Shown here in pieces: positions 6,094-47,143 of a stretch of DNA of 47,143 bases. The translations under genes and the position numbers were made by a program. The DNA lies in assembly GCA_017651225.1 (NCBI GenBank), contig JAGCDF010000063.1:1-47143 (forward strand), given 5' to 3'. Source of the stretch: Bacteroidales bacterium. Lineage in GTDB: Bacteria; Bacteroidota; Bacteroidia; Bacteroidales; UBA932. Numbering within the stretch: the first letter of the stretch is position 1; every line of letters starts with the position of its first letter. The notes under the pieces were generated by a model. It was not told the origin of the DNA. It made no database searches and worked only from the letters and a program-made list of their open reading frames with translations.

Positions 6094-6124
6094 CAAAGAT
6101 AACCCATTTTGGCAATATTTCAAA
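6094..6124 (-). promoter_or_regulatory. Promoter of the HEPN/MNT operon
   Basis: On the minus strand TTTG (6124-6121), exactly 19 bp, then TATCTTTG (6101-6094): a perfect match to the Bacteroidota consensus. The box ends 9 nt before the ATG at 6084, so the mRNA should have almost no leader. This also decides the start codon of the nucleotidyltransferase gene. Confidence 0.8.
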
Positions 6125-27632: not shown

Positions 27633-28987
27633 ACAAATCCCTCAACCGCGAGATTCTGCGGCTGTCGGTGCCCAGCATCCTAGCCGGGATCACCGTGCCC
27701 CTGGTGGGCATGGTGGACACCGCCGTGGCGGGCCACCTGAGCGGCGACACGGCGGCGCAGATCGGCGCCATCTCCGTGGGCTCGATGGTGCTCTCGCTGC
27801 TGTACTGGACCTTCGGTTTTCTGCGCACCGGAACGGGCGGGCTCACGGCCCAGGCCTTCGGCCGGGGCGATTTCGCGGAGTGCGGGCGCATCTTCCTGCG
27901 CGGCACGGGGCTCGCCCTGCTGGCCGCCTTCTTCGCCCTGGCGCTCCAGTGGCCCTTCTTCAAGGGCGTGATGCTGATCCCGGACGCGACGCACGGGGTG
28001 CGCGTCCTGGCGGAACGATACTTCTTCATCCGCATCTGGGCGGCACCCGCGACGATGACCCTGATGACCCTGCGGGGCTGGTTCGTGGGAATGCAGAACT
28101 CCGTAAACCCGATGTGGATGGACCTGATCATCAATGCCGTGAACATCGGCGCGAGCATCCTGCTCGCCTTCGGCGTCGGCCCCTGGCCGGGGCTCGGCTT
28201 CGCGGGCATCCCGCTCGGCACCGTGATCGCCCAGTACTGCGGCCTGCTCTATGGCCTGCTGGTCTGCCGCTTCAAATACGGGCGGAGCGTGTTCTCCCTG
28301 CTGCAGCGCAGCGACTTCGCGGGCCTGCTGCACGACGGCTCCATGGGCCGCTTCTTCCGCATGAACCTGGACCTGCTCGGCCGCTCGTTCTTCTTCATCC
28401 TGATCTATATCGGCTTCACGATGATCGCCGCCGGCTGCGGCGACGTGATGCTGGCCGCCAGCTCCATCCTGATGCAGCTGCTGATGTTCTTCAGCTATTT
28501 CACCGACGGCTTTGCCTATGCCGGCGAGGCCCTCGCGGGCCGCTTCATCGGCGCCCGCGACGGGGCGATGCTGCGCCAGTCCGTGCGCTATGTCTTCGGC
28601 TGGAGCATGGTCCTCGCGGTGTTCTTCGCTGTCCTTTACGCCGTTGCCGGCTCGCCGGTGATCCGGCTGCTGACCAGCGACGAGACCGTCGTCCAGGCCT
28701 GCCGGCTGTTCCTGCCCTGGCTGCTGCTGATGCCGCCGCTTGGCTGCGCTGCCTTCACCTGGGATGGCATCTTCCTGGGCGCTACGGCCTCCCGGGGCCT
28801 GATGACATCCATGGCCGGCGCCGCGGCCGCTTTCTTCGCCGTCTGGTATACCGGCAGATGGCTGCTGCAGCCCGCAGGTGCAACAGCCATCCACATTCTT
28901 TTTGCCGCTTACTTCGCCCACCTCGCCTTCCGGACGCTCTGGCTCACGCTCCGCTACCGGAAAGAGGTGCTGGGGACGGTCGGCTAG
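27629..28987 (+). CDS. MATE family efflux transporter, DinF-like
   Basis: 452-residue inner-membrane protein with about 12 hydrophobic helices, the MATE size. The N-terminal segment PSILAGITVPLVGMVDTAVAG and the GGLTAQAFGRGD motif of helix 2 are typical of the DinF branch, whose members export drugs or other organic cations using Na+ or H+ gradients. The start is set by the 4-base overlap with rsgA. It ends tail to tail with the NCS2 permease gene, sharing the palindrome CTAG as both stop codons. Confidence 0.92.
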   Translation: MNKSLNREILRLSVPSILAGITVPLVGMVDTAVAGHLSGDTAAQIGAISVGSMVLSLLYWTFGFLRTGTGGLTAQAFGRGDFAECGRIFLRGTGLALLAAFFALALQWPFFKGVMLIPDATHGVRVLAERYFFIRIWAAPATMTLMTLRGWFVGMQNSVNPMWMDLIINAVNIGASILLAFGVGPWPGLGFAGIPLGTVIAQYCGLLYGLLVCRFKYGRSVFSLLQRSDFAGLLHDGSMGRFFRMNLDLLGRSFFFILIYIGFTMIAAGCGDVMLAASSILMQLLMFFSYFTDGFAYAGEALAGRFIGARDGAMLRQSVRYVFGWSMVLAVFFAVLYAVAGSPVIRLLTSDETVVQACRLFLPWLLLMPPLGCAAFTWDGIFLGATASRGLMTSMAGAAAAFFAVWYTGRWLLQPAGATAIHILFAAYFAHLAFRTLWLTLRYRKEVLGTVG

Positions 28988-30336
28988 ATAAAGATATACC
29001 GCAGGACGAAGAGGACCGAGAGGACCCACATCGGGACGGAGATCTCTTTGAAGCGGCCGGCGATGGCGTGGGTGACCACGTAGGAGATCACGCCGATCAG
29101 GATACCGTCGGAAATGCTGTAGGCCACCGGCATCATGACAATCGTGATGAAGGCCGGGATGCTCTTGCAGTAATCTTCCCAGTGGATGCGCTTGATGGAA
29201 GGCATCATCATCACGCCGACCATGATCAGGGCCGGGGCCGTGGCGGCACTCGGGATGGACAGGAAGATCGGCGAGAAGAAGAGGGCCAGGGCAAAGCAGA
29301 CCGCGGTAGAGAAGGCGGTGAGGCCGGTACGGCCACCCTCACCCACGCCAGCGGCGCTCTCGACATAGGTCGTGGTGGTGGAGGTGCCCAGGCAGGCGCC
29401 CGCCACGGTGGCGATGGAGTCGGCCAGGAACATCTTCTCGGCGCCGGGGACGTTGTCGCGCGGACCGTCGTCCGGGATAAGGCCGGCACCCTGATGGACA
29501 CCGATGATCGTACCCATCGTATCGAACATATCGACAAAGAGGAAGGTGAACACAACCACCAGCATGTCCCAGCTGAAGAGCTGACCAAATTCGAATTTGC
29601 AGAAGATCGGGGAGACGCTCTGCGGCAGCGACAAGAGCTGCACGGCACCGGTGTCGGTGCGGGTCAGCTGCGTCACGGCGCTGCCCGTGGCGGGATCCTT
29701 GACGACCAGGCCGATCAGCGTGGTGACGATAATGCCGATGAGGATACCGCCGCGCACCTTCAGCATAACCAGGCCGGAGGTGACCATCAAGCCGATGAAG
29801 GCCACGAGGGCCGTGCCCTCCGTGATTTTGCCGAGGGTCACCAGCGTGGAGTCGGAATTGACGATGATGCCGGCGTTCTGGAAGCCGATGAAGGCGATGA
29901 AGAAGCCGATACCGGCGCCGATGGCCTTCTTGAGCGTGCCCGGGATGGAGTTCAGCAGCAGGGTACGGATCTTCGTCACCGTCATGATGATGAAGAGGAT
30001 ACCTTCCAGGAACACGGCCGTCAGGGCGAACTGCCAGGAGTAGCCCATCGTGAGGCAGACCGTGTAGACGAAGAACGCATTCAGGCCCATGCCCGGAGCC
30101 AGGGCGAAGGGCTTCTTGGCGTAGATCGCCATGACCAGGGTACCCACGATAGCCGCCAGTGCGGTGGCCGTGAATACGGCGCCGCCGGGCATGCCGTCCA
30201 GGGCGCTGAAGATGCTGGGGTTGACGGCCAGGATATAGGCCATCGTCAGGAAGGTGGTGATGCCGGCGACAATCTCGGTCCGGACGTTGTGCTTGTCAGC
30301 CTCGAAGCCGAAAGCCTTATTCAGGAAATTCGCCAT
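28984..30336 (-). CDS. NCS2 family purine permease (AzgA-like)
   Basis: 450-residue inner-membrane permease with about 12-14 helices. Markers are GFEADKHNVRTEIVAGITTFLTMAYI at the N-terminus (AzgA/PbuG type), FALAPGMGLNAFF, the central DMFDTMGT motif and GACLGTSTTTTYVESAAGV. Characterised AzgA/GhxP relatives import adenine, guanine or hypoxanthine with protons. The gene follows the DUF5020 porin gene after 12 bp and lies in the same direction as apt, forming an import and salvage unit for purine bases. Confidence 0.92.
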   Translation of the reverse strand: MANFLNKAFGFEADKHNVRTEIVAGITTFLTMAYILAVNPSIFSALDGMPGGAVFTATALAAIVGTLVMAIYAKKPFALAPGMGLNAFFVYTVCLTMGYSWQFALTAVFLEGILFIIMTVTKIRTLLLNSIPGTLKKAIGAGIGFFIAFIGFQNAGIIVNSDSTLVTLGKITEGTALVAFIGLMVTSGLVMLKVRGGILIGIIVTTLIGLVVKDPATGSAVTQLTRTDTGAVQLLSLPQSVSPIFCKFEFGQLFSWDMLVVVFTFLFVDMFDTMGTIIGVHQGAGLIPDDGPRDNVPGAEKMFLADSIATVAGACLGTSTTTTYVESAAGVGEGGRTGLTAFSTAVCFALALFFSPIFLSIPSAATAPALIMVGVMMMPSIKRIHWEDYCKSIPAFITIVMMPVAYSISDGILIGVISYVVTHAIAGRFKEISVPMWVLSVLFVLRYIFI

Positions 30337-30348
30337 GGTGTCCGAAGA

Positions 30349-31098
30349 CTAGAAGACCCACTTGATACCGGCGCAGGGACGGCACCAGAAACCTCTGGCC
30401 GTACCGAAATCGTAGGAGAGCTCAATCTCACCGCCGATGTTGAGGTTGTCGCAACCGAAGTGCTGGCCCACGTTGTACCAGAGCTGAGGCTCGGAAATGA
30501 ACACGGTGTGGGACGTCTCAGGAAGAATGGTGCCGTTGTGGTCGGTGAAGAGCGTGTGGTCCTCCCACCAGAAATCGGCGAAGCCGCTGAAGCGCAGACC
30601 CTGCACGCCGAAGAGGTCCTGCAGGCCCCACACGAAGGTGAGCTGCACCGGAGCTTTCTGGGTGGTGTAGGTGATCTTCTTGTAGAGCACCTTGAAGTTG
30701 AAGGTGTTCTTGAAGTCCACGCTGTGCAGGAAGTAATCCACACCCACGAGGAAGGCGCTGTTGATGGTGAAGCCGTTGTAGACGCCGCCGTTGTACTCGA
30801 CCTGGAGGCTCAGCGGAGCGATTGCGCTGTTCTGCCAGAAATTGAGGCAGCGGGCGATTTCAAAGTAGGTGCCACTCGGCGCATAGACCTGGTTCTTGGT
30901 GTCCCGCGTATTGAAGTCGTGGTCAATGAAGAAGAAGGTGTTGCCCCAGTTGTCGTTGTAGAAGCCTTCGAGGGTCGTCGTCACATGCTGACGGTCCGGG
31001 CCGAAGTCATAGAAAATCTGGAGATTGGTCTGCGCCTTTGCTCCTTGAGCAAAAAGCAACGCGGCGGAAGCGACCGCCATCAGGAACACTTTTTTCAT
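30349..31098 (-). CDS. DUF5020 outer-membrane protein, Tsx-like nucleoside channel
   Basis: 249 residues starting MKKVFLMAVASAA with a signal peptide cleaved after QGAKA (about residue 21). The rest alternates hydrophobic and polar residues with many Tyr, Phe and Trp, as in an outer-membrane barrel, and ends in a terminal aromatic (WVF). The start LQIFYDFGPDRQHVTTTLE and the segment FGVQGLRFSGFADFWWEDH match what I know as DUF5020, related to the Tsx nucleoside channel. Between apt and an NCS2 permease, a role as outer-membrane pore for nucleosides or bases is a reasonable inference. Confidence 0.83.
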   Translation of the reverse strand: MKKVFLMAVASAALLFAQGAKAQTNLQIFYDFGPDRQHVTTTLEGFYNDNWGNTFFFIDHDFNTRDTKNQVYAPSGTYFEIARCLNFWQNSAIAPLSLQVEYNGGVYNGFTINSAFLVGVDYFLHSVDFKNTFNFKVLYKKITYTTQKAPVQLTFVWGLQDLFGVQGLRFSGFADFWWEDHTLFTDHNGTILPETSHTVFISEPQLWYNVGQHFGCDNLNIGGEIELSYDFGTARGFWCRPCAGIKWVF

Positions 31099-31121
31099 TG
31101 TATTAAGAATGATATGATTCG

Positions 31122-31646
31122 TCAAACTTTCAGGACCGAAGTCACCTCGACACCCTCCGGCAGGGTATCCCGCCCCGGAAGGCCTTCAATCTCAATGTTG
31201 AAGTTGATGTAGATCGCCTTGGGGTTGAATTTTTGAACGAGCTTGTACGCTGCCCCCATCGTACCGCCCGTGGCGAGCAGGTCGTCGTGGATCAGCACCA
31301 CGTCGTCGGGGGTGATGGCGTCGGTGTGGATCTCGATCGTATCGCGGCCATACTCCTTGACGTAGGTCTGGCTGATCACCTCGGCGGGGAGCTTGCCCGG
31401 CTTGCGCGCCATCACGAAGCCGGCGCCCAGGCGGATGGCCAGGGCCGGGCCCATGATGAAGCCGCGGGACTCAAGACCGACGACCTTGGTAATGCCTTTG
31501 TCTTTGTAAAGTTCGTAAAGAGCGTCTTCGAGCTCCCGCAGGGCTGTGGCGTCTTTGAACATAGTCGTGACATCCCAGAAGAGGATGCCTTTTTTCGGAA
31601 AATCCGGAATGGTCCGGAGACTCGATTTTAGGCTTTCTAAACTCAT
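31122..31646 (-). CDS. apt: Adenine phosphoribosyltransferase
   Basis: 174-residue type I phosphoribosyltransferase that converts adenine and PRPP to AMP. Motifs are IPDFPKKGILFWDVT at the N-terminus, VVGLESRGFIMG, and the PRPP loop VVLIHDDLLATGGT (121-129 for DDLLATGGT). The start MSLESLKSSL gives the usual length; the open frame continues far upstream opposite RNase R but that part is not coding. It is the first gene of the apt-DUF5020-NCS2 run and divergent from the RNase R gene. Confidence 0.96.
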   Translation of the reverse strand: MSLESLKSSLRTIPDFPKKGILFWDVTTMFKDATALRELEDALYELYKDKGITKVVGLESRGFIMGPALAIRLGAGFVMARKPGKLPAEVISQTYVKEYGRDTIEIHTDAITPDDVVLIHDDLLATGGTMGAAYKLVQKFNPKAIYINFNIEIEGLPGRDTLPEGVEVTSVLKV

Positions 31647-36192: not shown

Positions 36193-38193
36193 TTAGTCGA
36201 TCAAACCGCGGCCGCGGAGCATGGCCTGGGAATCCGGCTCGCGGCCGGCGAAGGCCTTGTAGAGCGTCATCGGCTCCTCGCTGCCACCCTTCTCCAGGAA
36301 GGTCTCCTTGAACTTCTTCGCAAGCTCGAGGTCGTACGGACCGGCCGGGGAGGCGGCGAAGAGGCTGAAGGCGTCCTTGTCGAGAACCTCGGCCCAGAGG
36401 TAGCCGTAGTAACCGGCGGCGTAGCCGCTGGAGAAGATATGGTTGAAGTAGGTCGAGCGGTAGCGGAAGGTGATCTCCGGGATCAGGCCGATCTCCTCGG
36501 CGATCTTCTGCTCGAAAGCGTCGATGTCCACGCCCTTCGTGCTCTCCAGCTCATGCCAGCGCATGTCGAGGATGGAGGCAGCACAGAGCTCGGTGGTCAT
36601 GAAGCCCTGGTTGAACTTCTTGGCGTTCAGGATCTTCTGCACCAGCTCGGCCGGGATGGGCTCGCCGGCGGCGTTCTTCGCGTACTGCGCGAGCAGGCTG
36701 GGCTGGAAGGCCCAGTTCTCGTTGAACTGGGAGAACATTTCGACGAAGTCGCGGGTCACGTTCGTGCCGCTCACGGAGGAGTAGTGGCACTGAGTCAGCA
36801 GGCCGTGCAGGGCGTGGCCGAACTCGTGGAAGGCGGTCTCCACCTCGTCGATGGAGAGGTAGTCGTCGGAGAAGTTGCAGACGTTCACGATGATCGGGCG
36901 GACCTCGGTGCCGTCAGCCTTGACGTACTGCTCGCGGACGTTGTTCATCCACGCGCCGCCGCGCTTGCTCGGGCGCGGCTTGTAGTCGGTCGTGAAGATG
37001 CCCAGCAGGGAGCCGTCGGCAGCCGTGACCTTGTAGGCGCGGACCTGCGGGTTGTACACGGGGACATCTTTCAGCTCCTCGAAGTTCACGCCGTAGAGGA
37101 TGTGGGCGTTGGTGAAGATGCCGTTCACGACGTTGTCGACGTGGAAATACGGCTTCGTGAGGGCCTCGTCGAGGTCATACTTGGCCTTGCGGACCTTCTC
37201 GGCGTAGTACCACCAGTCCCAGGGCTCGATCTTCGAGCCGGCCGGCAGCTTACCCTCGCGGACCTCCTGGTCCATCACGGCCTGCATATCAGCCAGTTCC
37301 GTCTTGGCGCGGGCCACGGCGGCCTGCATGATGCCGTTGAGGAAGTTGTCGACGGTCTTGGTGTCGCCCGCCATCTTGTTGGCGAGGATGTAGGCGGCGG
37401 CGTTCGGGTAGCCGAGGATCTTCGCCTTCTCGGCGCGCAGGTCGAGCACCTCCAGCAGGAGCTGGCGGTTGTCGTACTCATTCCCGCGGTGGCCGCGGGC
37501 GGTGTAGGCCTCGTTGTACTGGCGGCGCAGCTCGCGGTCCTCCGTGGAGGTCATCTTGTCGGGATAGGCGGCCACGCTGAAGCCGAATTTCTCGAGGAAA
37601 TCGTTCGACTCGGCGAGGATGTTGTTGCCGATCTTCTGCGTCTTGGCGGCGATGTCGGCGTTAATCTGGCGCAGGCGCGCCTGCTGTTCCTCGGGCAGGC
37701 CGATACCTTCACGCTCGAAGGCGTCGAAGTGCTTTTTCAGCACCATCTGCTGCTCGCGGGTCAGGCCACTCTGGTCGCCGTTGTAGACGGCGGCCACGCG
37801 GTTGTAGAGCGCCTTGTTGAAGGACATGTTGTTCTCATGCTCGCTCATCAGGGAGATGATGTCCTCCTCGATGGCGGACAGCGCGTCGGTGCGGTCAGTC
37901 TCGGTGATGTTGTAGAACACGCCGACAACCTTGGAAAGGATCTCGCCGGAGAGCTCCAGCGGAGCGATGGTGTTCTCGAAGGTCGGCGCGTCGGGATTGG
38001 CCACGATGGCGTCGATTTCTGCGTTCTGCTGCTCGATGCCCGCCTGGACGGCGGGGATGAAGTCAGCGGGCTGGATCTTATCGAAGGGCGGAATGCCGTA
38101 GGGGGTGTCCCATTCCGTCAGGAAGGGGTTCACGCGGGTGTTGCAGGCTGTCATGGCGACACAAAGGGCTGCGATAGCGAAAACTTTTTTCAT
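36193..38193 (-). CDS. M3 family metallopeptidase lipoprotein (Dcp-like)
   Basis: 666 residues; lipobox AMTAC with lipidated Cys17. It is a mostly helical zinc peptidase of the M3 family with the site FHEFGHALH (HEFGH, 456-460) and the downstream third ligand in the [14 protein letters not shown] region. Length and the N-terminal [16 protein letters not shown] segment match peptidyl-dipeptidase Dcp, which trims dipeptides from C-termini; in Bacteroidales these are often exported lipoproteins. It abuts the EEP gene with no gap (TAA then ATG), so it is the last gene of that operon. Confidence 0.93.
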
Positions 38194-39270
38194 TTATTGA
38201 CTGATTACTATGTACGTGGGATAATGGTCGGAGTAGCCGTTGATGAACTGCCCGCCGGAGAAGGTCCGGAAGGGCGTGCCGGCGTAGCGGCCTTCCTGCT
38301 GGACCAGGAAGGGCGGGTTGAAGACGTAACCGTAGTGCGTGTCATCGCTCTTGAGGATGTGCAGGCTGCCCTGCGCGTCGGTGTCCACCAGGCAGCGGTT
38401 CACGAAGATGCAGTCGAAGATGTTCCACTCGCCGTGGTACTCCTCCGTGCCGAAGCCGTCCTTGTGCATGCGCAGGAACGGGGAGAAGAGCTCGCCCTCG
38501 GCCATCTCTTCGATGGTCTCGCGTCCGCGCAGGTAGTCCGTCATGCAGACGTCCTCCGGGTTGTCGTTCATGTCGCCCATCACGACGATGTTGATGTCCT
38601 CATAGCGATGCTCGAGCGTGAAGATGTCCTCCCGGACAATCTCCGCGGCGCGGCAGCGCAGGTCGCTGCCCTTGTTGCCCGTGCGGGACGGCCAGTGGCA
38701 CACGTAGACCGCGAACACCTCGCCGGCCAGCACGCCACGCACGCAAAGCACGTCGCGCGTCTTGAACTCGGCCTGCTCCTCGGGGGTCTTCTCGAAGACG
38801 ATGCCGCTCGCGCTGTTGAAATCATAGGGCAGCGCGCGGACGTCCACCACCTTGAACTCGTCCGGCCGGTAGAGCAGCGCGCAGTCGATGCCGCGCACGT
38901 CCGGGCCCTCCACGTGGACGAACTTGTAGCCCGCCTCGGCAATCTCCGGGCGCGCCACGAGGTCCGCGAGCACACGGTCGTTCTCGACCTCGGCGAGACC
39001 CAGCAGCGTGTGCCAGCGGCCGTTCTTCTCAGCCATCGCAGCGATTACGGACGCGATGTTGGCGAGCTTCTGCTCATATTTCTCGGGCGTCCAGGCGTTC
39101 TCCCCCTCCGGGGTGAAGGCCAGGTCGTTCTTGTCCTCGTCGTGCTCCGTGTCGAAGAGGTTCTCGACATTGTAGAAGCCGACCACGTAGGCGTCTTTGG
39201 GAAGATTCTGCCCGCAGGCCCCCAGCAGGACCAGCGAAACGAGCAGCGCAAGGATTCGGTTCATTTTCAT
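38194..39270 (-). CDS. Endonuclease/exonuclease/phosphatase family lipoprotein
   Basis: 358 residues with lipobox LLGAC (Cys19). The DNase I-like EEP fold shows FYNVENLFD at the start of the domain, the metal-binding Glu in LGLAEVEND, CHWPSR, the catalytic GDMNDNP, and the late SDHYPTYIV with the active-site His. EEP enzymes cut DNA, RNA, nucleotides, phospholipids or inositol phosphates; sequence alone does not fix the substrate. Downstream of a nuclease gene, nucleic-acid fragments or nucleotides are the likely choice. Its ATG overlaps the preceding stop by 4 bases. Confidence 0.88.
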   Translation of the reverse strand: MKMNRILALLVSLVLLGACGQNLPKDAYVVGFYNVENLFDTEHDEDKNDLAFTPEGENAWTPEKYEQKLANIASVIAAMAEKNGRWHTLLGLAEVENDRVLADLVARPEIAEAGYKFVHVEGPDVRGIDCALLYRPDEFKVVDVRALPYDFNSASGIVFEKTPEEQAEFKTRDVLCVRGVLAGEVFAVYVCHWPSRTGNKGSDLRCRAAEIVREDIFTLEHRYEDINIVVMGDMNDNPEDVCMTDYLRGRETIEEMAEGELFSPFLRMHKDGFGTEEYHGEWNIFDCIFVNRCLVDTDAQGSLHILKSDDTHYGYVFNPPFLVQQEGRYAGTPFRTFSGGQFINGYSDHYPTYIVISQ

Positions 39271-39713
39271 TCTTCAGGAAGGATCTTGTAGCCCTGCACA
39301 AAGTTGTTGAAGAGGACGTAGATCTGGCGGGTGCCGTCTTCGTGGGTGCAGTCCCGGACACGGCAAAGCGTGGTTCCGTTCTCCAACGCCAGGTGGTCCA
39401 CGTAGCTCCAGCCATTCTTATCCTTGTAGGTATAGCTCTCCGTCAGGAGATCGTAGGAAATCTCCTTGCGGGGCATGCGCACGGTGACTTTCTTTCCGTC
39501 CAGATCCAGGACGAGCTCGCCATGCGTCTTGCGCCAGCGGTGCACGTCCAGGGAGGTCATGGGCGTGCTCGTAGGGGTCATGCCGGCAATCACAATACCA
39601 CTCTCCGGCCGGCCCCAGCCGGCGTTCGTAATCGTGAAGCGCTCGGTCTGCGCAAGCGCGGTGCCGCCTGCCAGAAGCAGGACGGAGGCAAGGATGACGA
39701 TGATCTTTTTCAT
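39267..39713 (-). CDS. Small exported hypothetical protein
   Basis: 148 residues from MKKIIVILASVLL with a signal peptide ending near GGTALA (residue 21). The mature part is beta-rich (TERFTITNAGWGRPESGIVI, ELVLDLDGKKVTVRMPRKE, ending with YVLFNNFVQGYKI) and contains two cysteines in LCRVRDCTH that might form a disulfide. No family recognised. It sits 8 bp after the BACON/OB nuclease stop and overlaps the EEP gene by 4 bases, so it is co-translated with two probable hydrolases. Confidence 0.75.
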   Translation of the reverse strand: MKKIIVILASVLLLAGGTALAQTERFTITNAGWGRPESGIVIAGMTPTSTPMTSLDVHRWRKTHGELVLDLDGKKVTVRMPRKEISYDLLTESYTYKDKNGWSYVDHLALENGTTLCRVRDCTHEDGTRQIYVLFNNFVQGYKILPEE

Positions 39714-39721
39714 ATGCTTAC

Positions 39722-41155
39722 TTAGTTGCTCCACCACCAGGTGGTTTGGGTAGGATCTGCGGATTCAACGGTTTTCTGCGTGTCGGCGTCGAGGTTCACG
39801 AAGAAATCCACGCCCACCTTCTTCTCCAGCTCATCGACGCTCATCGCCTTCGTCTTCGGGATGCTGGTGGACTTGTCCGGGGCGTTTTCGAACCAGAAGG
39901 CATTGGCGCTGTATTCGCCCTTCGACAGGCGCAGGAGGGCCTTGTAGTAGCCCACAGGGACAGTGATCTGCTTGTTGTCGGAGTCGAGGGCGTATTTGTC
40001 GCTGCCCTGCGTCACGCAGCCCGTGACCACATAGAGCGTGTCGGACTTCTTCGCCCAGTCGCGGACCTTGCTCTCCAGCACCGCCCAGGCCTCGGCGTTG
40101 AGTTCGTTCACCTGCGGGGTCATGTTGGTGGCGAAGAAGGTCTCGATGTTGACGCGCCAGTCCAGCCGGTCGGCCGAAGGAATCTGGTGGCCGCGGTCGA
40201 ACTTGCCCGCATTGCCCTCACGATAGGTGCCGGGCAGATAGGCCTGCTGGCTGCGCGGAAGCAGCGGATCCAGGCAGAATTTGTCCGTGCGCCCGCCGGA
40301 GCCGATATTGCCCGCGCAGAGCGGGTAAGCCACCCAGCTGGACACGAAGTTGCCGTAGTCGTAATAGGCGGAATAGCTGCGCTGCCCGTCCGGGAAATAA
40401 TGGATCAGCAGGTCCTGCTTGTCGTCGGCGGACGTGGCGGGGAGCTCCATCCAGCCGGCCTTCGTGGAGGCGACTTTCCGGCCGAGCCGGTACGTGCCTT
40501 CCTCCTTGCCGAGGAAGTAGGCCGGCGTCTGGCCGCCTGCTTCAATGGTGCCGTTGTACTCGCTGCGCAAGGTCATCATCGTGACCTTGTCGCCCGGCTT
40601 CAGGCCCAGCGTGGAGAAGGACTCGTCGTTGCCGCCCATCGGCCGCTGCGTCGCGCAAAGACCGTAGACATAGACGTAGCCCGTCTCGTCGAAGATGATG
40701 AAGTTGCCGTATTCCTCGTTCTCGATGGCGGCGATTTCGCCCGTCAGCTCATACCAGGTGGTCCCGTCCACTTTCTTGTCACGGAATTCGCTGATGGTCA
40801 TCCGCGGCGTTTCCTCCCGGGCGGCCTGCTTCACACTGATCTGGCCGGACTTGTCCCCGGCCGTCACGGTGACGGTCGCCGTCCGCTCGGACGTCGTCGG
40901 ATTCGCGGCCACGGTGAGGGTCACCTTCTGGTTGTCAGACGCGATGCCGGAGATGGGCAGCGTGGTCACCCAGTCCGAATCGGAGTGGATGGACCAGTTC
41001 TGGTTGGTCTTGAAGTAGACGTCCGCCTTACCGCCTTCGGCCGCCACGGAAACGCTGGTATTGAACAGGTTCAGCTCTGCGACAACCGGTTTGTCGCATG
41101 CGGTGGCTGTGGCCACCAGCGCAAAGAGTATCGGAAAAATCTTCTTCAGTTTCAT
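39722..41155 (-). CDS. BACON/OB-fold lipoprotein with DNA/RNA non-specific endonuclease domain
   Basis: 477 residues with lipobox TATAC (Cys20). Domains: BACON (about 25-112, with NQNWSIHSDSDWV), an OB-like domain (about 117-215, WYELTGEIAAIENEEYGNF), and a NUC1-type DNA/RNA non-specific endonuclease (about 235-460). The catalytic motif is DRGH (320-323) in KFDRGHQIPSADRL, followed by the metal-binding Asn region FFATNMTPQVNELN. This predicts a surface or periplasmic nuclease with a nucleic-acid-binding or carbohydrate-binding front end. A terminator and a TAACTTCG box lie just upstream, so it probably starts its own transcript. Confidence 0.9.
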   Translation of the reverse strand: MKLKKIFPILFALVATATACDKPVVAELNLFNTSVSVAAEGGKADVYFKTNQNWSIHSDSDWVTTLPISGIASDNQKVTLTVAANPTTSERTATVTVTAGDKSGQISVKQAAREETPRMTISEFRDKKVDGTTWYELTGEIAAIENEEYGNFIIFDETGYVYVYGLCATQRPMGGNDESFSTLGLKPGDKVTMMTLRSEYNGTIEAGGQTPAYFLGKEEGTYRLGRKVASTKAGWMELPATSADDKQDLLIHYFPDGQRSYSAYYDYGNFVSSWVAYPLCAGNIGSGGRTDKFCLDPLLPRSQQAYLPGTYREGNAGKFDRGHQIPSADRLDWRVNIETFFATNMTPQVNELNAEAWAVLESKVRDWAKKSDTLYVVTGCVTQGSDKYALDSDNKQITVPVGYYKALLRLSKGEYSANAFWFENAPDKSTSIPKTKAMSVDELEKKVGVDFFVNLDADTQKTVESADPTQTTWWWSN

Positions 41156-41161
41156 AACCTA

Positions 41162-41169
41162 CGAAGTTA
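41162..41169 (-). promoter_or_regulatory. Nuclease operon -7 box (TAACTTCG), predicted leaderless
   Basis: One mismatch to TAnnTTTG on the minus strand, 6 nt before the nuclease ATG and downstream of the terminator at 41191-41223. Confidence 0.4.
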
Positions 41170-41190
41170 AGGATTTTCGCGCAAGAAAGC

Positions 41191-41223
41191 AAAAAAGAGG
41201 GCCGACCCGCAGGCCGGCCCTCT
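41191..41223 (-). terminator. Intrinsic terminator after the BACON/OB lipoprotein gene
   Basis: AGAGGGCCG and CGGCCCTCT form a 9-bp stem with a 10-nt loop; on the minus strand it runs into a stretch of six T. It separates the receptor/OB unit from the nuclease unit. Confidence 0.9.
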
Positions 41224-41241
41224 CGGAACTATAGATAAAGA

Positions 41242-42819
41242 TTACTCGTTGGCTTTCTTGAAGGAGAAGCAAACGCCCTTGTTCAGCTGCGGAACATCGT
41301 TGTAGGAGGACTTGGTGGCGATGATGGAGATCTGGTCACCCACCTCCAGGTTGTTGTCCCGGACAAGGTACTTGCGGGCGTCACCGGTTGCGCCCCAACC
41401 GGGGTAGCAGCCATAGACATAGACCGTGCTGGTGCCGTCCGAGATGTACATATTGCCGTAGTCGTTATCATTGCCCTTGTCGTCTTTCAGGGAAGTGATC
41501 GTACCGGTCACCAGGTAGTAGATGTCCTTGCTGTCGGGCTTGGTAAGGAAGTCGCTGACGCTGACCTCTTCCACGAGGGCCACGATGGTCTCGATATGGC
41601 CGTTGACCATCTGGGGAGAACCCTTGTAGTCACCGCGCTTGCCGACCACGTGAACGACATCACCGAGCTCGAGAGCCGACTCCACGAAGTTGTCCGTCTT
41701 GTAAACGAGCACCTCACCGGACCAGTCCTGGATGTAGAAGCTCTCGCCGCTCTTGTCGCTGGAATAGCCGCGGGTGATGACACCGGTCAGGCGGAACGGC
41801 GTGCTGCTGCCGGACTCGGCGGCGATGAACTCGGCCACGGTGACATCGAGGATGGCACCCATCTGGGTGATGGTCTGCTGGGTGGAGTATTCCTTGGTGC
41901 CGTCGGTGGTCTTGAAGACAACCGTGGCCTGACGGTCGCCACCGTCGTTGGCAGCTGCGCTGAAGGTCACCTTGTTGCCGGCCACGGCAGCGATGCTCAG
42001 CCAGGAAGCGTCCTCAGGGGCCTCGACATAGAGACCGTTGCCCTTGTTCTTCAGGGTCACGGTGACCTTGCCGCCTTCAGCCTCGATGGAAGCATCCTCG
42101 GGATCGACGGAATCGACGGAGATGAGGGACTTCTCGATGGCCACGACATAGGCGGTCTTCTCCTTCGTCTCGGGCGTGCCCTTGTAGCTCATGAGCTCGC
42201 CCATGATGGTCAGCTCATCGCCGACGGCGAACTCGTCGCCCGTCTTGAACGCAGCACCGTTGAGCCAGGCACCGCGGTAAACCTCGAGCCAGTTCTCGTG
42301 CTTGCCGTCATCGGAAAGGTAGTAGGTGGCGTTGCCGTAGCTCGGGCTGATCTCGTCAATCTTGGAGACGATACCCTTCACGCAGTACTCGCCGTCCAGG
42401 TTGTAGGTCGTGCCCGCTTCGCCGCCCGCCTTGATGAGAGCGAGCGCGCTGGCGACGGAGATGATCTTGACCTCACCCTTCGCGGCGTACTGGATCACGC
42501 TGATATACTGGGTCTTGCCACCGCAGAGGAGGTGGACCTCAGCATTGTTCGTGTTCTTGGTCTTGGCGGCCGTGAACGTGATATTGGTGCTGCCGGCAGG
42601 GCCGGACATAGGATTGATGGTCAGCCAGGCAGGGACCGTTGCTGCATCGATCTCCCAGGCAGAGGACGTCAACACACCGACGGAGGTGCTGCCTCCCTCG
42701 ACGTTGATGGAAACATAAGACTCCGAAAGCTGAACCTCGGAAAGCGTGCCGATCGGCTCCTGCTGGCAGGAAGCTGCCAGAAGGACGGAGAGGGCTGCAA
42801 GAATATATCTGAATTTCAT
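41242..42819 (-). CDS. BACON/OB-fold surface lipoprotein
   Basis: 525 residues, lipobox LLAASC (Cys18), no catalytic motif. Domain order: BACON (about 25-113, SSAWEIDAATVPAWLTI), OB-like (about 115-232, YCVKGIVSKIDEISPSYGNA), second BACON (about 236-325, EDASWLSIAAVAGNKV), and two more OB-like domains (about 330-425 and 427-520). The last OB aligns with the OB of the nuclease: YLVTGTITSL ... YGNMYISD ... VYVYG against YELTGEIAAI ... YGNFIIFD ... VYVYG. It lies 16 bp after the TonB receptor gene, the place where polysaccharide loci carry SusD. I infer a surface binding protein, with nucleic acid as one plausible ligand. Confidence 0.85.
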   Translation of the reverse strand: MKFRYILAALSVLLAASCQQEPIGTLSEVQLSESYVSINVEGGSTSVGVLTSSAWEIDAATVPAWLTINPMSGPAGSTNITFTAAKTKNTNNAEVHLLCGGKTQYISVIQYAAKGEVKIISVASALALIKAGGEAGTTYNLDGEYCVKGIVSKIDEISPSYGNATYYLSDDGKHENWLEVYRGAWLNGAAFKTGDEFAVGDELTIMGELMSYKGTPETKEKTAYVVAIEKSLISVDSVDPEDASIEAEGGKVTVTLKNKGNGLYVEAPEDASWLSIAAVAGNKVTFSAAANDGGDRQATVVFKTTDGTKEYSTQQTITQMGAILDVTVAEFIAAESGSSTPFRLTGVITRGYSSDKSGESFYIQDWSGEVLVYKTDNFVESALELGDVVHVVGKRGDYKGSPQMVNGHIETIVALVEEVSVSDFLTKPDSKDIYYLVTGTITSLKDDKGNDNDYGNMYISDGTSTVYVYGCYPGWGATGDARKYLVRDNNLEVGDQISIIATKSSYNDVPQLNKGVCFSFKKANE

Positions 42820-42835
42820 ATTCGTAAGGAGTCAA

Positions 42836-45800
42836 TTAGTTGAACATATACTTAAGACCGATGGAAGCATACCAGCACTGGCCAATAGCGGTGTTGTACT
42901 GCCAGATTTCGGTATTCTTGTTGACGGCGGCCGGGGTGGAGAAGGTCGGATAACCATCGGCATCCACGCCCTCGTACTGGAGGATACGGCCGGAGTTGAG
43001 ATCAGGATTCATGTACTTGCTCACGCCCCAGCTGGAGTTGAAGATGTTCAGCAGGTTCTTGATGTCCACGCTGAGCTGCAGGGTGTTGCGGGTGTTGCCG
43101 ATCTTCAGCACGAAGTCATGCTTGTAGCTGAAGTCCACGCGGTGCACCCACGGGTTGTACACGCTGTAACCCTCGGCATACTGGCCCTGGTGCTTGCTCA
43201 GGTACTCGTCCTTGTGGACGAAGTCCATGAAGCGGGTGGCATCGTCGTTGGACACGAAGCGGAACTCGCCCTTGGCCACCTGGTCGTCGGTCGGGATGAA
43301 CAGGGAGTCGTACTTGTAGTTGTCGCCGTTCATGTCGTTGGTCAGCATGTAGGAGTAGTTGTAGCCGCCACGCCAGGCCTCATAGATGAAGCTGAAGTGG
43401 TTGCCGCTGCGGTCGTTGTGGGTCACGGAAGCCACGACGCGGTCCGGAGTCAGGTTGGAAGCGGAGTGCAGGGTCGTGTAGTTCGGGCCCGCCACGGTCG
43501 GCACGTAGTTGAAGATGGATGCAGGGTCGGAACCCGGCAGGGAGGTGAGCTCCTTGGCCACGGTGTGGGTGTAGGCCGCCATGATGTTGAGACCCTCGAC
43601 CGGGCTCATGTTCAGGGTGACGTTACCGGAGTAGGTGTAGCCGAGGTGCGTGTTGGTCAGCACGTAGGCCGGGGAGTTCGTGTACTTGTAGTTGGCAGGA
43701 TAGACCGGGCGGTTGTCAACGCCGTTGAAGCGGGCGAAGCCGTCCACCGGAATCATGTTCCAGTCTTCCATCGTGGAGGCGTTGATGTTCTGGTTGAACA
43801 TACCCTCGACGGTGATGGAGAACGGGAAGGAGGTCGGGAAAGCGTAGTCCACGGCCAGGGCGGTCTTCCAGACCTGCGGCATCTTGAAGTTCGGATCCAC
43901 AGCGGCGAGCTTGGAAGGAATCTTACCGTCAGACTCGGAAATCTCCTGCGGGAAGCCGAGGCCATACCACTTCTGGCGCATCTGCTCGCGGTCGACGATC
44001 AGGTCGCCGGCGAACTGCTCGAGGAGCGGGTTGGGGTTCGCGACACCATCCTTGTAGGTGGTGGTGATGATACCTGCATACTGGTTCATGGAGGAGTTGG
44101 ACGGCATGTTCGTGAGGAACACGAGCGGAATACGGCCGGTGAAGAAGCCGGTACCACCGCGGACCTTCAGGCTCTTGTCGCCGAGGACATCCCAGGTGAA
44201 ACCGATACGCGGCGAGAACAGAGGAATGGCTTTCGGCCACTTGCCGGTGTCAATGTGACGCTCGTTGCCGTTGGCGTCCGGATAGGTCAGCGCGAGGACG
44301 GCGTTGTTCGTGATGATGTTGCTGTTATCGAAGAAGAAGTCGTCGATACGCAGACCGGCGGTCAGCTTGAAGCGGTCGGTGACATCCCACTCATCCTGGA
44401 CATAGAGGCTGGCCTTGTGGTACATAACACGGCTGGCGGGGTTGTCACGCATCAGGTTCTCGTAACCGTAGGTGAAGTTCACCGTCTCCGGGGTGGCGCC
44501 GGTCAGGAAGTCCTGCAGGGAGTTGTAGCGGTAGTAACCGGTACCGTTACGCAGGTAGGCGTTGTCAGCCATCTGGTACTCGTAAGCGAGACCGGCGGTG
44601 ATCTTGTGGTCACCCGTATAGTAGGTGAAGTCGTCCTTGATGTTGATAACGTCGTTGTGGTAACCGTTCTGCCAGGTGAAGAGCTCGTAACCGAGGGACA
44701 TGTACGGAGTGATCGTGCCGGTGCCATCGAGGATATCGATGAACGGGAAGTAGGAAGAATCCGTACCGCGGGTGGTATCGAGCTTGGAATACGTGGCCAG
44801 GAACTGGTTCGTCATGTTGTCGGCGAAGCGGCTGTTCAGGTCCAGAGAGAAGGAGTGGACCAGGTTGTTCATGGTGTAGAACGCGTTCGAGAAGGACATG
44901 GAGTACTGGGACAGACGGGCCTCGGTGGTACGCTGACCGCAGTCGGAAGACGAAGCGTTGGTGAAGTTGCACTCCTTGGAGATGGTGTAGTTGTAGCGCA
45001 GGGCCAGCTTGTGCTTGTCATTGATGTTCCAGTCAATGCGGGCCAGGGCCTTCATGTTCATCTCGTTGCCGCTGAAGTCGGTGTAGGAACCCGGATCGTA
45101 GCCATACTTGTTCATGACATAATCCTTGACCTTCTGCATGTCGGACTCGGTGGTGCGGGAGATGTAGAGGGAAGGGTTGGCCACGCCGTCCTTGGAAGCG
45201 CGCCAGCGGGAGGTCTCCTCCGGATGGGGGATGTACTCGAAGTTGACGAAGAAGAAGAGTTTGTTCTTCACGATCGGGCCGCCGAAGGTCATACCGTAGG
45301 TGGTCGTGCGCTCCTTGTTGCGCTCGCCCAGCTCGAGGCCGGCGACATTGTTGCCGCGCATGAACTCGTTGCGGTGGTAGATGTAGGCGCTGCCCTTGAA
45401 GGTGTTGGTACCGGACTTGGTGATGGCGTTGACGCCGCCGCCGATGAAGTTGGTCTGGCGGACATCGAACGGGGAGATCACGACCTGCATTTCCTCGATG
45501 GCATCCAGGGAAACCGGGTTGCCGCCGCCGGGGAGGTCACCGGAAAGGCCGAAGTTGTTGTTGAAGTTGGCACCGTCGATGGTGAAGTTGGAGGAACGGT
45601 CGTCAGCACCCATGAAGGTCATACCGTTACCACCGTACGGGGACAGACGCGTCACATCGGTGAGGTTGCGGCTGACCGTCGGGAGGGCGGTGATCTGGGC
45701 GTTGTTGATGTTCGTCGCGGCACCGGTCTTCTCGGTCGAGAACTTGGTCGCGGCCTCAGAGATCACGATGGCCTCTTTCAGCATCTCTGTGTCGTCGCTC

Positions 45801-46129
45801 ATCGAGGCGAGGAGCGCGTAAGCTTCACCGAGCTTGAGGGTGATGTCCGTATAGGTCACGGTGTTGTAACCCAGGCAGCTGATCTCGACGGAGTAAGGAC
45901 CGCCGGTACGCATACCCTTGATGGAGAAGCGGCCTTCGGCGTTGGCCACAGCGTAGTACTGGGTGCCGGAAGGCGTGTGCACTGCCACGACCGTGGCGCC
46001 GGGGACACCTTCGCCGTGCTGATCGGACACTTTACCGTTCAGCTCGGAGGTCGTCACCTGCGCGGCGGCAGACACGACAAAAAGCATCGCTGCGAAAGAC
46101 AGCAATACACTCTTGAATGCTTGTTTCAT
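42836..46129 (-). CDS. TonB-dependent receptor with carboxypeptidase-like N-terminal domain
   Basis: 1097 residues from MKQAFKSVLLSFAAM, signal peptide ending at VSAAAQ (about 24). Residues about 25-110 are a carboxypeptidase-regulatory-like domain (LNGKVSDQHGEGVPGATVVA ... GRFSIKGMRTGGPYSVEIS), followed by the plug (FTIDGANFNNNFGLSG, IEEMQVVISPFDVRQTNFIGGGVNAITKSGTN) and a long outer-membrane barrel ending KYMFN. The SPFDVRQ/GGVNAITKSGTN pattern recalls Oar-like receptors rather than classical SusC. It imports a large or scarce ligand using TonB energy. No SusD follows; the BACON/OB lipoprotein takes that position. The upstream in-frame ATG 10 codons earlier lacks a signal peptide fit. Confidence 0.92.
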   Translation of the reverse strand: MKQAFKSVLLSFAAMLFVVSAAAQVTTSELNGKVSDQHGEGVPGATVVAVHTPSGTQYYAVANAEGRFSIKGMRTGGPYSVEISCLGYNTVTYTDITLKLGEAYALLASMSDDTEMLKEAIVISEAATKFSTEKTGAATNINNAQITALPTVSRNLTDVTRLSPYGGNGMTFMGADDRSSNFTIDGANFNNNFGLSGDLPGGGNPVSLDAIEEMQVVISPFDVRQTNFIGGGVNAITKSGTNTFKGSAYIYHRNEFMRGNNVAGLELGERNKERTTTYGMTFGGPIVKNKLFFFVNFEYIPHPEETSRWRASKDGVANPSLYISRTTESDMQKVKDYVMNKYGYDPGSYTDFSGNEMNMKALARIDWNINDKHKLALRYNYTISKECNFTNASSSDCGQRTTEARLSQYSMSFSNAFYTMNNLVHSFSLDLNSRFADNMTNQFLATYSKLDTTRGTDSSYFPFIDILDGTGTITPYMSLGYELFTWQNGYHNDVINIKDDFTYYTGDHKITAGLAYEYQMADNAYLRNGTGYYRYNSLQDFLTGATPETVNFTYGYENLMRDNPASRVMYHKASLYVQDEWDVTDRFKLTAGLRIDDFFFDNSNIITNNAVLALTYPDANGNERHIDTGKWPKAIPLFSPRIGFTWDVLGDKSLKVRGGTGFFTGRIPLVFLTNMPSNSSMNQYAGIITTTYKDGVANPNPLLEQFAGDLIVDREQMRQKWYGLGFPQEISESDGKIPSKLAAVDPNFKMPQVWKTALAVDYAFPTSFPFSITVEGMFNQNINASTMEDWNMIPVDGFARFNGVDNRPVYPANYKYTNSPAYVLTNTHLGYTYSGNVTLNMSPVEGLNIMAAYTHTVAKELTSLPGSDPASIFNYVPTVAGPNYTTLHSASNLTPDRVVASVTHNDRSGNHFSFIYEAWRGGYNYSYMLTNDMNGDNYKYDSLFIPTDDQVAKGEFRFVSNDDATRFMDFVHKDEYLSKHQGQYAEGYSVYNPWVHRVDFSYKHDFVLKIGNTRNTLQLSVDIKNLLNIFNSSWGVSKYMNPDLNSGRILQYEGVDADGYPTFSTPAAVNKNTEIWQYNTAIGQCWYASIGLKYMFN

Positions 46130-46198
46130 AATGTTGATAATATGGTAAAATTGAATCACTTATATGCCTATTACCTATAAGCGGGTTCTCCCGCGCCG

Positions 46199-46229
46199 CA
46201 AAGATAGTTTACGAATTTGAATCAGCCAA
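46199..46229 (-). promoter_or_regulatory. Promoter of the TonB receptor operon
   Basis: On the minus strand TTG (46229-46227), 20 bp, then TATCTTTG (46206-46199). Transcription should begin near 46193, so the leader is about 63 nt and opens with a small hairpin GCGGG/CCCGC (46181-46194). Confidence 0.7.
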
Positions 46230-46262
46230 GTTCTTTCACGATTTTTTATCAACAATTATTGC

Positions 46263-46270
46263 TATCTTTG
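46263..46270 (+). promoter_or_regulatory. metK -7 box (TATCTTTG)
   Basis: Perfect TATCTTTG; transcription should start near 46277, just upstream of the SAM-II element. No clear -33 TTG at the usual distance. Confidence 0.55.
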
Positions 46271-46291
46271 CGCCGAATTATTAACAAACCC

Positions 46292-46340
46292 AACGAGGAC
46301 AGATTTGACTGCTTGCAACCTCGTCAAAAATGCTAAAAAG
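46292..46340 (+). promoter_or_regulatory. SAM-II type riboswitch upstream of metK
   Basis: P1 stem CGAGG (46294-46298) with CCTCG (46319-46323) encloses a 20-nt loop with the conserved GATTTG and CTTGCA blocks. An A-rich segment and the conserved GCTAAAAAG (46332-46340) follow, ending at the ATG. This order and these blocks are the SAM-II (SAM-alpha) signature. In this class, SAM binding forms a pseudoknot with the tail and hides the ribosome binding region, so high SAM should switch off metK translation. The pseudoknot pairing is not fully clear by eye. Confidence 0.85.

Positions 46341-47143
<803 letters not shown>

Follow-up and report, generated by a model that had tools for sequence, protein, structure and literature searches.

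The locus studied here lay at positions 36193..46229 of a 47,143-nucleotide stretch of DNA (the window, by which we mean the whole stretch) from a Bacteroidales bacterium (UBA932; assembly GCA_017651225.1, contig JAGCDF010000063.1), whose genome (G000) is a metagenome-assembled genome (MAG) that was 79% complete. An initial annotation had described it as a possible system for the use of extracellular nucleic acids, with genes for a TonB-dependent receptor, a lipoprotein of BACON and OB domains (the binder), a nuclease lipoprotein, a small exported protein, an EEP-family hydrolase and an M3 peptidase. All six open reading frames (ORFs) were present, on the minus strand, and the ORFs and a Pfam profile search agreed on the gene set and the named domains, except that the OB-like domains were mostly below the cut-off. 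From the receptor to the M3 gene, intervals of 16, 86 and 8 bp were followed by an overlap of 4 bases and an interval of 0 bp, and the spacing was thus operon-like; the upper bound of the locus, 46229, fell some 100 bp beyond the start of the receptor gene on its upstream side. The sole match to a Bacteroidales-type promoter pattern in the window was at 6094-6124 (0.12 expected), and none was upstream of the receptor, where bases 46100-46420 were inspected. The features of the locus were as follows.

42836..46129, minus strand: Oar-type TonB-dependent receptor of 1097 amino acids with a signal peptide, CarboxypepD_reg, plug and barrel (PF25183, PF13620, PF00593).
41242..42819, minus strand: binder lipoprotein of 525 amino acids, BACON-OB-BACON-OB-OB (Pfam and a 21-sequence alignment; lipobox AASC, then QQEPIG).
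42490..42744, minus strand: BACON 1 of the binder, residues about 26-110 (Pfam and domain-to-domain comparison).
42124..42477, minus strand: OB-like domain 1 of the binder, residues about 115-232 (YGN motif in the alignment; nothing above the Pfam cut-off).
41854..42102, minus strand: BACON 2 of the binder, residues about 240-322 (PF13004, best stretch 266-319).
41584..41844, minus strand: OB domain 2 of the binder, residues about 326-412 (PF01336; the profile region that matched RPA32 and, weakly, RPA2 and YhaM).
41260..41580, minus strand: OB-like domain 3 of the binder, residues about 414-520 (matching the OB domain of the nuclease, E 3e-7).
39722..41155, minus strand: nuclease lipoprotein of 477 amino acids, BACON-OB-Endonuclease_NS (Pfam; Serratia nuclease 1ql0, E 1e-17).
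39785..40378, minus strand: Endonuclease_NS catalytic domain, residues 260-457 (DRGH at 40187-40198).
39267..39713, minus strand: small Sec-exported protein of 148 amino acids without any family, between the nuclease and EEP genes.
38194..39270, minus strand: EEP-superfamily hydrolase (PF19580) of 358 amino acids, a lipoprotein in the window lineage (Pfam and tree).
36193..38193, minus strand: M3 metallopeptidase (Dcp-like) lipoprotein with an HEFGH motif (Pfam Peptidase_M3).

The nuclease had a BACON domain and an Endonuclease_NS domain (123.7 bits) in Pfam. The DRGH motif, which the initial annotation had called intact, was indeed kept together with the two Asn residues and the Glu of Serratia nuclease. 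In 15 aligned sequences R321, G322 and H323, N344, N353 and E361 were invariant, and the Asp of DRGH was not. The window nuclease thus carried the features of the NUC1 type, namely DRGH, the metal-binding Asn and the Glu, and it is probably active on nucleic acid. Its catalytic domain and residues were the same as in the DNA-RNA non-specific nucleases of Serratia and Anabaena; unlike them, it was a lipoprotein in which BACON and OB domains precede the catalytic one, and it was encoded in a receptor operon.

The binder shared these accessory domains. Its last OB domain matched that of the nuclease in a direct comparison (E 3e-7), as had been proposed, and the BACON and OB domains of the nuclease also aligned to BACON 2 and OB 2 of the binder (E 4e-9). 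Pfam recognised both BACON domains of the binder and one OB domain (PF01336, residues 360-411, 28.9 bits with a cut-off of 27). This middle domain was the only binder OB above the cut-off, and the OB of the nuclease was below it; the remaining OB-like domains were recognised by a YGN...D pattern held in common in the alignments and by direct sequence comparison. Accordingly, the two BACON domains and one of the three OB-like domains claimed earlier stood on Pfam, and the others on the alignment pattern. When the family profile of the binder was compared with solved structures, 13 rows were obtained: two BACON-type proteins, five RPA32 (E 4e-4 to 1e-3), a weak RPA2, two YhaM, STN1 and two unrelated structures. 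Thus, the OB domains did not prove foreign to the families that bind nucleic acids. Homologues of the binder were scarce, with 7/295 genomes of the order matching at E 1e-10, partial matches counted; at E 1e-15 its profile found 1/247 genomes across the phylum, namely the window's own, and a scan of the genome contigs with the binder gave five relatives. Two more ORFs of the window genome weakly resembled the N-terminal half of the binder, L002 (G000:C47, E 9e-9) and L004 (G000:C63, E 1e-5). Descent of the binder from DUF5689 proteins is not claimed, since the hhalign comparison was unusable (probability 34%, with the aligned part outside the first DUF5689 row).

The receptor had CarboxypepD_reg, the Oar-type barrel PF25183 and the TonB barrel PF00593 above the Pfam cut-offs. 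The Plug model PF07715 was below its cut-off, and the family profile matched the plug region of the colicin I receptor 2hdf (E 3.8e-7), so that both the plug and the barrel of a TonB-dependent receptor were found. The search for relatives covered the window family (199 genomes), the order (295) and the phylum (247), and we inspected neighbourhoods of up to 20 kb with a gene caller that shortens some starts, that of the window binder among them. In a tree of 64 receptors, 30 including the window receptor formed one clade (98% SH-aLRT support) that covered the window family, f72, f111 and one Prevotella MAG. A BACON/OB lipoprotein was encoded directly 3' of the receptor in all 30, and its match extended beyond the first BACON in 29; in L130 it covered the first BACON alone, yet this protein also had an OB match. 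Seven of the 30 receptors came from the binder searches (L016-L019, L121-L123) and the window's was an eighth, which leaves 22 independent of that choice. Thus, the receptor-binder pair was fixed within the clade. A BACON/OB gene was also found beside three receptors of another subgroup (L125, L120 and L129). We obtained no evidence that the receptor belongs with peptide or sugar transporters, and the wider family has no assigned substrate. Divergent from the receptor, at the start of metK, the window had a SAM-II long-loop riboswitch (RF01726, 58.1 bits, 46289-46346, plus strand).

The strongest evidence for nucleic acid as the substrate was the repeated linkage of nucleases to this pair. Among the matches listed, a nuclease lay within 8 kb of the receptor in 25/45 genomes with a receptor of at least 56% identity, vs 3/89 for distant receptors, all three being second receptors in the same clusters. 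With the partial receptors of G453, G455, G472 and G484 and eight receptors at 49-53% identity added, the counts were 27/49 vs 4/97; the second receptor copy of G298 was still not counted, nor were some other distant rows that were partial or unlisted. The 8 kb limit was picked after the distances had been seen, and here as elsewhere Fisher values ignore shared ancestry; the nuclease was near the pair in the genera g1, g195, g196 and g202. Its position varied. Namely, in g196 and g202 it was upstream and fused to DUF5689/BACON domains (domains checked in L089), in g195 it was directly downstream of the pair, and in g1 and L019 it was downstream together with the EEP gene. Hence the co-occurrence of receptor, binder and nuclease that the initial annotation had proposed to survey was kept among relatives, and gene order was not. 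Moreover, nucleases of another family had joined the same modules: in L018 the binder was followed by Endonuclease I, a family unrelated to NUC1, and in L020:2-1717 OB domains 63% identical to residues 310-519 of the window binder were fused to Endonuclease I in one ORF. That nucleases were repeatedly linked or fused to these modules, and in places exchanged for an unrelated family, argues for a nucleic-acid substrate. The contig of L121 stopped too early to judge whether a nuclease gene adjoined its pair.

The remaining genes of the operon appeared to have a different history. The EEP protein matched PF19580 with 290.7 bits and the M3 protein matched Peptidase_M3 with 396 bits. The small exported protein had no Pfam match; a homologue 52% identical to it was present in L016 and none was called in L017. 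We had considered a role as a nuclease inhibitor for it, but in the absence of a Pfam match this idea had no support. In relatives, EEP genes of the window type adjoined two other genes, C13, encoding a protein of about 900 amino acids with CarboxypepD_reg, and C28, a DUF5689 lipoprotein by Pfam where checked. CarboxypepD_reg was the sole Pfam domain of the C13 family, and the member in L124 was without any family. The order nuclease-EEP-C13-C28 was found in 20/20 loci of the window family, which were picked from C13 hits once the nuclease and EEP neighbours had been noticed. An M3 gene directly followed the DUF5689 gene in 7/20 of these operons, and also in L125; it was not seen in 12/20 stretches, one further operon had it after a gap, and the contig of L143 ended just past DUF5689. 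C13 itself was widespread, being present in 88/199 genomes of the family (E 1e-20), 140/295 of the order (E 1e-60) and 77/247 of the phylum draw. Of the last, 36 rows above 490 bits were confined to the same order or to four families of the same class (f122-f125), and other classes gave partial, paralogue-level matches only.

On a wider scale we inspected 20 loci of the order and 20 of the phylum draw, chosen from C13 match rows (strong rows for the phylum) and not at random; two of the latter (L168 and L169) belonged to the window's order. Within two genes of C13 there was an EEP gene in 19/20 and 17/20 loci and a DUF5689-type C28 in 20/20 and 19/20, respectively. The EEP gene was mostly divergent, and the NUC1 nuclease was mostly absent (1/20 and 2/20). 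Endonuclease I, checked in Pfam, was near C13-C28 in 4/20 order loci (L184, L190, L191 and L194). In L190:6241-11917 (minus strand) genes for Endonuclease I, a DUF4493 protein, C13 and a double-DUF5689 protein were co-directional, which makes this an independent association of a nuclease with the C13 module. At L165:11595-13001 a DUF5689-type protein had a C-terminal part that matched the extracellular exonuclease ExeM with 43 bits, far below the cut-off.

In a tree of 74 EEP proteins, those of the window, L016 and L017 were grouped (100/100) inside the EEPs of the nuclease-C13 operon, with support of 97/95 with L155 and 99/98 for the next 14 rows. The window thus had an EEP of the EEP-C13-DUF5689 module clade, and its genome gave no match to C13 or DUF5689 (MAG 79% complete; the search did not cover the whole genomes of L016 and L017). 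C13 was present in 2/25 genomes with the nuclease near the receptor vs 11/20 with it far (Fisher 8e-4), so that the two features tended to exclude each other. The tree and synteny indicate that the nuclease-EEP-M3 part descends from the family operon nuclease-EEP-C13-DUF5689-(M3). In the simplest history, C13-DUF5689 disappeared from the window lineage, which acquired the receptor-binder pair on the upstream side. The initial annotation had missed that the nuclease-EEP-M3 part comes from an older EEP-C13-DUF5689 neighbourhood, of which natural transformation is the only known phenotype.

This phenotype was described in Riemerella anatipestifer. According to the accessible text of PMC8459023, RA0C_RS04915 encodes a CarboxypepD_reg outer-membrane protein and RS04920 a protein with DUF5689, DUF5017 and choice-of-anchor J domains. 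The two genes came from a transposon screen, their markerless deletion (RS04915 or RS04920) abolished detectable natural transformation, and they were reported there to lack homology to well-characterised transformation proteins; in F. columnare a DUF5017 gene lies between the two genes of the pair (PMC8459023). We observed the same arrangement in L161, where a DUF5017 gene (29.9 bits, cut-off 28.8) was located between C13 and DUF5689. The C28 proteins of flavobacterial type also matched choice-of-anchor J, and they matched the NCBIfam model 'M949_1556 family lipoprotein', above the cut-off in L156 and L157 and below it in nine others; M949 is a Riemerella tag. Thus, C13-C28 resemble RS04915/RS04920 in domains, order, adjacency and family models, the comparison being with the paper's descriptions of the two genes. 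Since C13 aligned to the Oar receptor over CarboxypepD_reg and the plug (hhalign E 4.4e-7, probability 93%), both pairs looked like a TonB-type barrel with a lipoprotein. Like the Riemerella genes, the window had a CarboxypepD_reg outer-membrane protein adjoining a lipoprotein, and its EEP was kin to those adjoining the Riemerella-type pair in relatives. However, the window pair was of the Oar type with BACON/OB instead of DUF5689, and a nuclease, a peptidase and a small protein were added.

To place the proteins in the cell we used a lipobox pattern of our own and counted a tail as acidic, and of export type, if it had a net acidic charge of at least 2 after the lipobox. No lipobox was found in 1/31 binders, 8/43 nucleases, 6/37 DUF5689 proteins, 50/55 EEP and 2/12 M3 proteins. 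Acidic tails were present in 17/30 binders, 13/35 nucleases and 21/31 DUF5689 lipoproteins, and in 0/5 EEP and 0/10 M3 lipoproteins (Fisher 4e-5). These families thus tended towards cutting outside and finishing inside. The window's own proteins did not follow this, as the tail of its binder, QQEPIG, had one net acidic charge. The proposal that binding and cutting occur outside and digestion is finished in the periplasm was accordingly borne out as a tendency of the families, and not by the tails of the window's binder and nuclease.

Taken together, we consider the locus to be probably (about 0.72) an outer-membrane TonB-dependent system for nucleic-acid acquisition. The nucleic-acid substrate, proposed earlier from domains, is likely on the basis of the domains, the catalytic residues and the recurrent nuclease linkage. 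In the suggested mechanism, the binder would lie on the surface beside the receptor and capture DNA or RNA via its OB domains, and the nuclease with the same BACON/OB module would cut the captured nucleic acid. The Oar-type receptor would carry the fragments across the outer membrane, and the EEP and M3 proteins, from families without surface tails, would complete the breakdown of nucleic acid, and of peptide attached to it, in the periplasm. Such a feeding locus may have arisen when a DNA-uptake module had its outer-membrane pair replaced by another. Its use was most likely nutritional, as a source of phosphate, nucleosides and nucleobases.

A number of observations weighed against this interpretation. 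The OB assignment depended on the family profile together with a single marginal match in Pfam, and the binder sequence on its own gave no OB protein when compared with solved structures. The binder was acidic (pI 4.57, and 4.3-4.8 for its OB domains, compared with a median of 5.62 for 924 called proteins and 4.1-5.9 for 19 binder relatives), which argues against simple charge-driven DNA binding. BACON domains are commonly taken as carbohydrate or mucin binders. The wider receptor family was common, with a homologue at E 1e-30 in 159/199 genomes, and receptors outside the clade often adjoined metK with no binder or nuclease nearby, so that the receptor alone was uninformative on the substrate. 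The nuclease was not near the pair in 20/45 genomes (among the matches listed), and its tail in the window, DKPVVA, lacked a net acidic charge. The stretches L122 and L123, which contained the pair, showed no match to the profiles of the nuclease, EEP or Endonuclease I, and in L123:10867-14000 (f111) the genes after the pair encoded a type I phosphodiesterase/nucleotide pyrophosphatase and an X-Pro peptidase. Finally, an M3 peptidase is just as compatible with a peptide substrate.

The alternative that survived best, although we regard it as unlikely, was that the locus is a variant of a competence module, in which the pair brings long DNA to ComEC for natural transformation. The C13-DUF5689 pair that adjoins the window-type EEP in relatives is similar to the one essential for transformation in R. 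anatipestifer. The same nuclease family includes EndA, which serves DNA uptake in pneumococcus. The accessible part of PMC8383284 reports that deletion of tonBA or tonBB lowers transformation in R. anatipestifer, and its authors attribute the tonBB effect to iron. A Competence (ComEC) domain match was also present in the window genome, as in 10/14 control genomes. However, this ComEC stretch (L180, G000:C12:31204-31938, minus strand) had one in-frame TGA and was either a pseudogene or an assembly error, the C13-DUF5689 pair was not found in the 79% complete genome, and a nuclease and a peptidase added in the window lineage better fit digestion. Nutrition was thus favoured over transformation.

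It is rather improbable that the locus serves peptide or nucleoprotein acquisition, with the receptor importing peptides, M3 trimming them and the nucleases clearing DNA from the substrate. The presence of an M3 gene in this operon, as well as immediately behind the DUF5689 gene of some family operons, agrees with this view. On the other hand, the nuclease and EEP genes were kept in 20/20 family stretches, most of which showed no M3, and the modules of the binder were common to the nuclease. Still less probable is a shield, in which a surface nuclease would act on DNA traps, phage DNA or biofilm DNA and the receptor would be its neighbour by accident. Bechon 2022 reportedly found an extracellular DNase of B. 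thetaiotaomicron to act in biofilm, but a shield would leave the fixed receptor-binder pair, the fusions and the EEP-C13-DUF5689 linkage unexplained. That the locus serves the use of polysaccharide or mucin, with BACON domains doing the binding and the nuclease incidental, is very improbable. The solved BACON matches were indeed GH16 and GH5 enzymes and a sulfatase, but the locus had no match to a glycosidase, to SusD or to the SusC family, and linkage to a nuclease recurred across several genera and involved an unrelated family of nucleases as well.

The resemblance to a polysaccharide-utilisation locus noted in the initial annotation held as a loose analogy, since the window operon also had a TonB-dependent receptor, an adjoining lipoprotein and secreted hydrolases. 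It was not of the SusCD type: none of the six proteins matched SusD/RagB in Pfam or NCBIfam, the Oar-type receptor had no SusC (SusC/RagA) match in NCBIfam, and the hydrolases of the locus were a nuclease, EEP and a peptidase, with no carbohydrate-active enzyme. To the extracellular EEP nucleases ExeM/NucH the window EEP was weakly similar (31.5 bits against a cut-off of 300), a partial match to the model that fell short of membership. A survey of secreted proteins in wastewater MAGs (PMC11495043) lists, in its accessible part, secreted endonuclease- and NUC-type nucleases, a few of them outer-membrane-bound, and mainly from Bacteroidota, and that part describes no receptor-binder-nuclease locus. 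The Rus ribose/nucleoside locus of B. thetaiotaomicron (BT2803-2809) scavenges parts of nucleic acids in a gut member of the Bacteroidales, but it is of the ribose/nucleoside type, and the accessible description names no nuclease or BACON/OB binder. Thus, the parts were ordinary and the arrangement was not found in the literature that we covered, which took in few subscription papers and no preprints.

Elsewhere in the window, at 28984-31643 on the minus strand, genes for adenine phosphoribosyltransferase, a DUF5020 protein and a Xan_ur_permease (xanthine/uracil-type) formed one run, likely a nucleobase import/salvage operon near the locus. Judged by contig number, the two closest relatives (L016 and L017) likewise had the permease beyond M3, at a distance of about 6-7 kb, and this may be plain synteny.

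With regard to the passage of DNA across the outer membrane in Bacteroidota, our comparison tied the Riemerella-type genes to an adjoining EEP partner, of a nuclease superfamily, across many families and showed an alternative receptor-lipoprotein pair standing in for the Riemerella-type pair. Tentatively, in Bacteroidota DNA may cross the outer membrane via TonB-dependent-type receptors and OB-type lipoproteins, not via a pilus secretin. EEP-C13-DUF5689 might then be the older, transformation form, as in Riemerella, which gut lineages could have converted to feeding through the addition of a surface nuclease and a peptidase; in the window the entire outer-membrane pair would have given way to an Oar-type receptor with a BACON/OB binder. 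If this is true, gut bacteria would have TonB-dependent loci dedicated to nucleic acid as a class of substrate, alongside those for polysaccharide and for peptide, and DNA feeding and gene uptake would share one machine.

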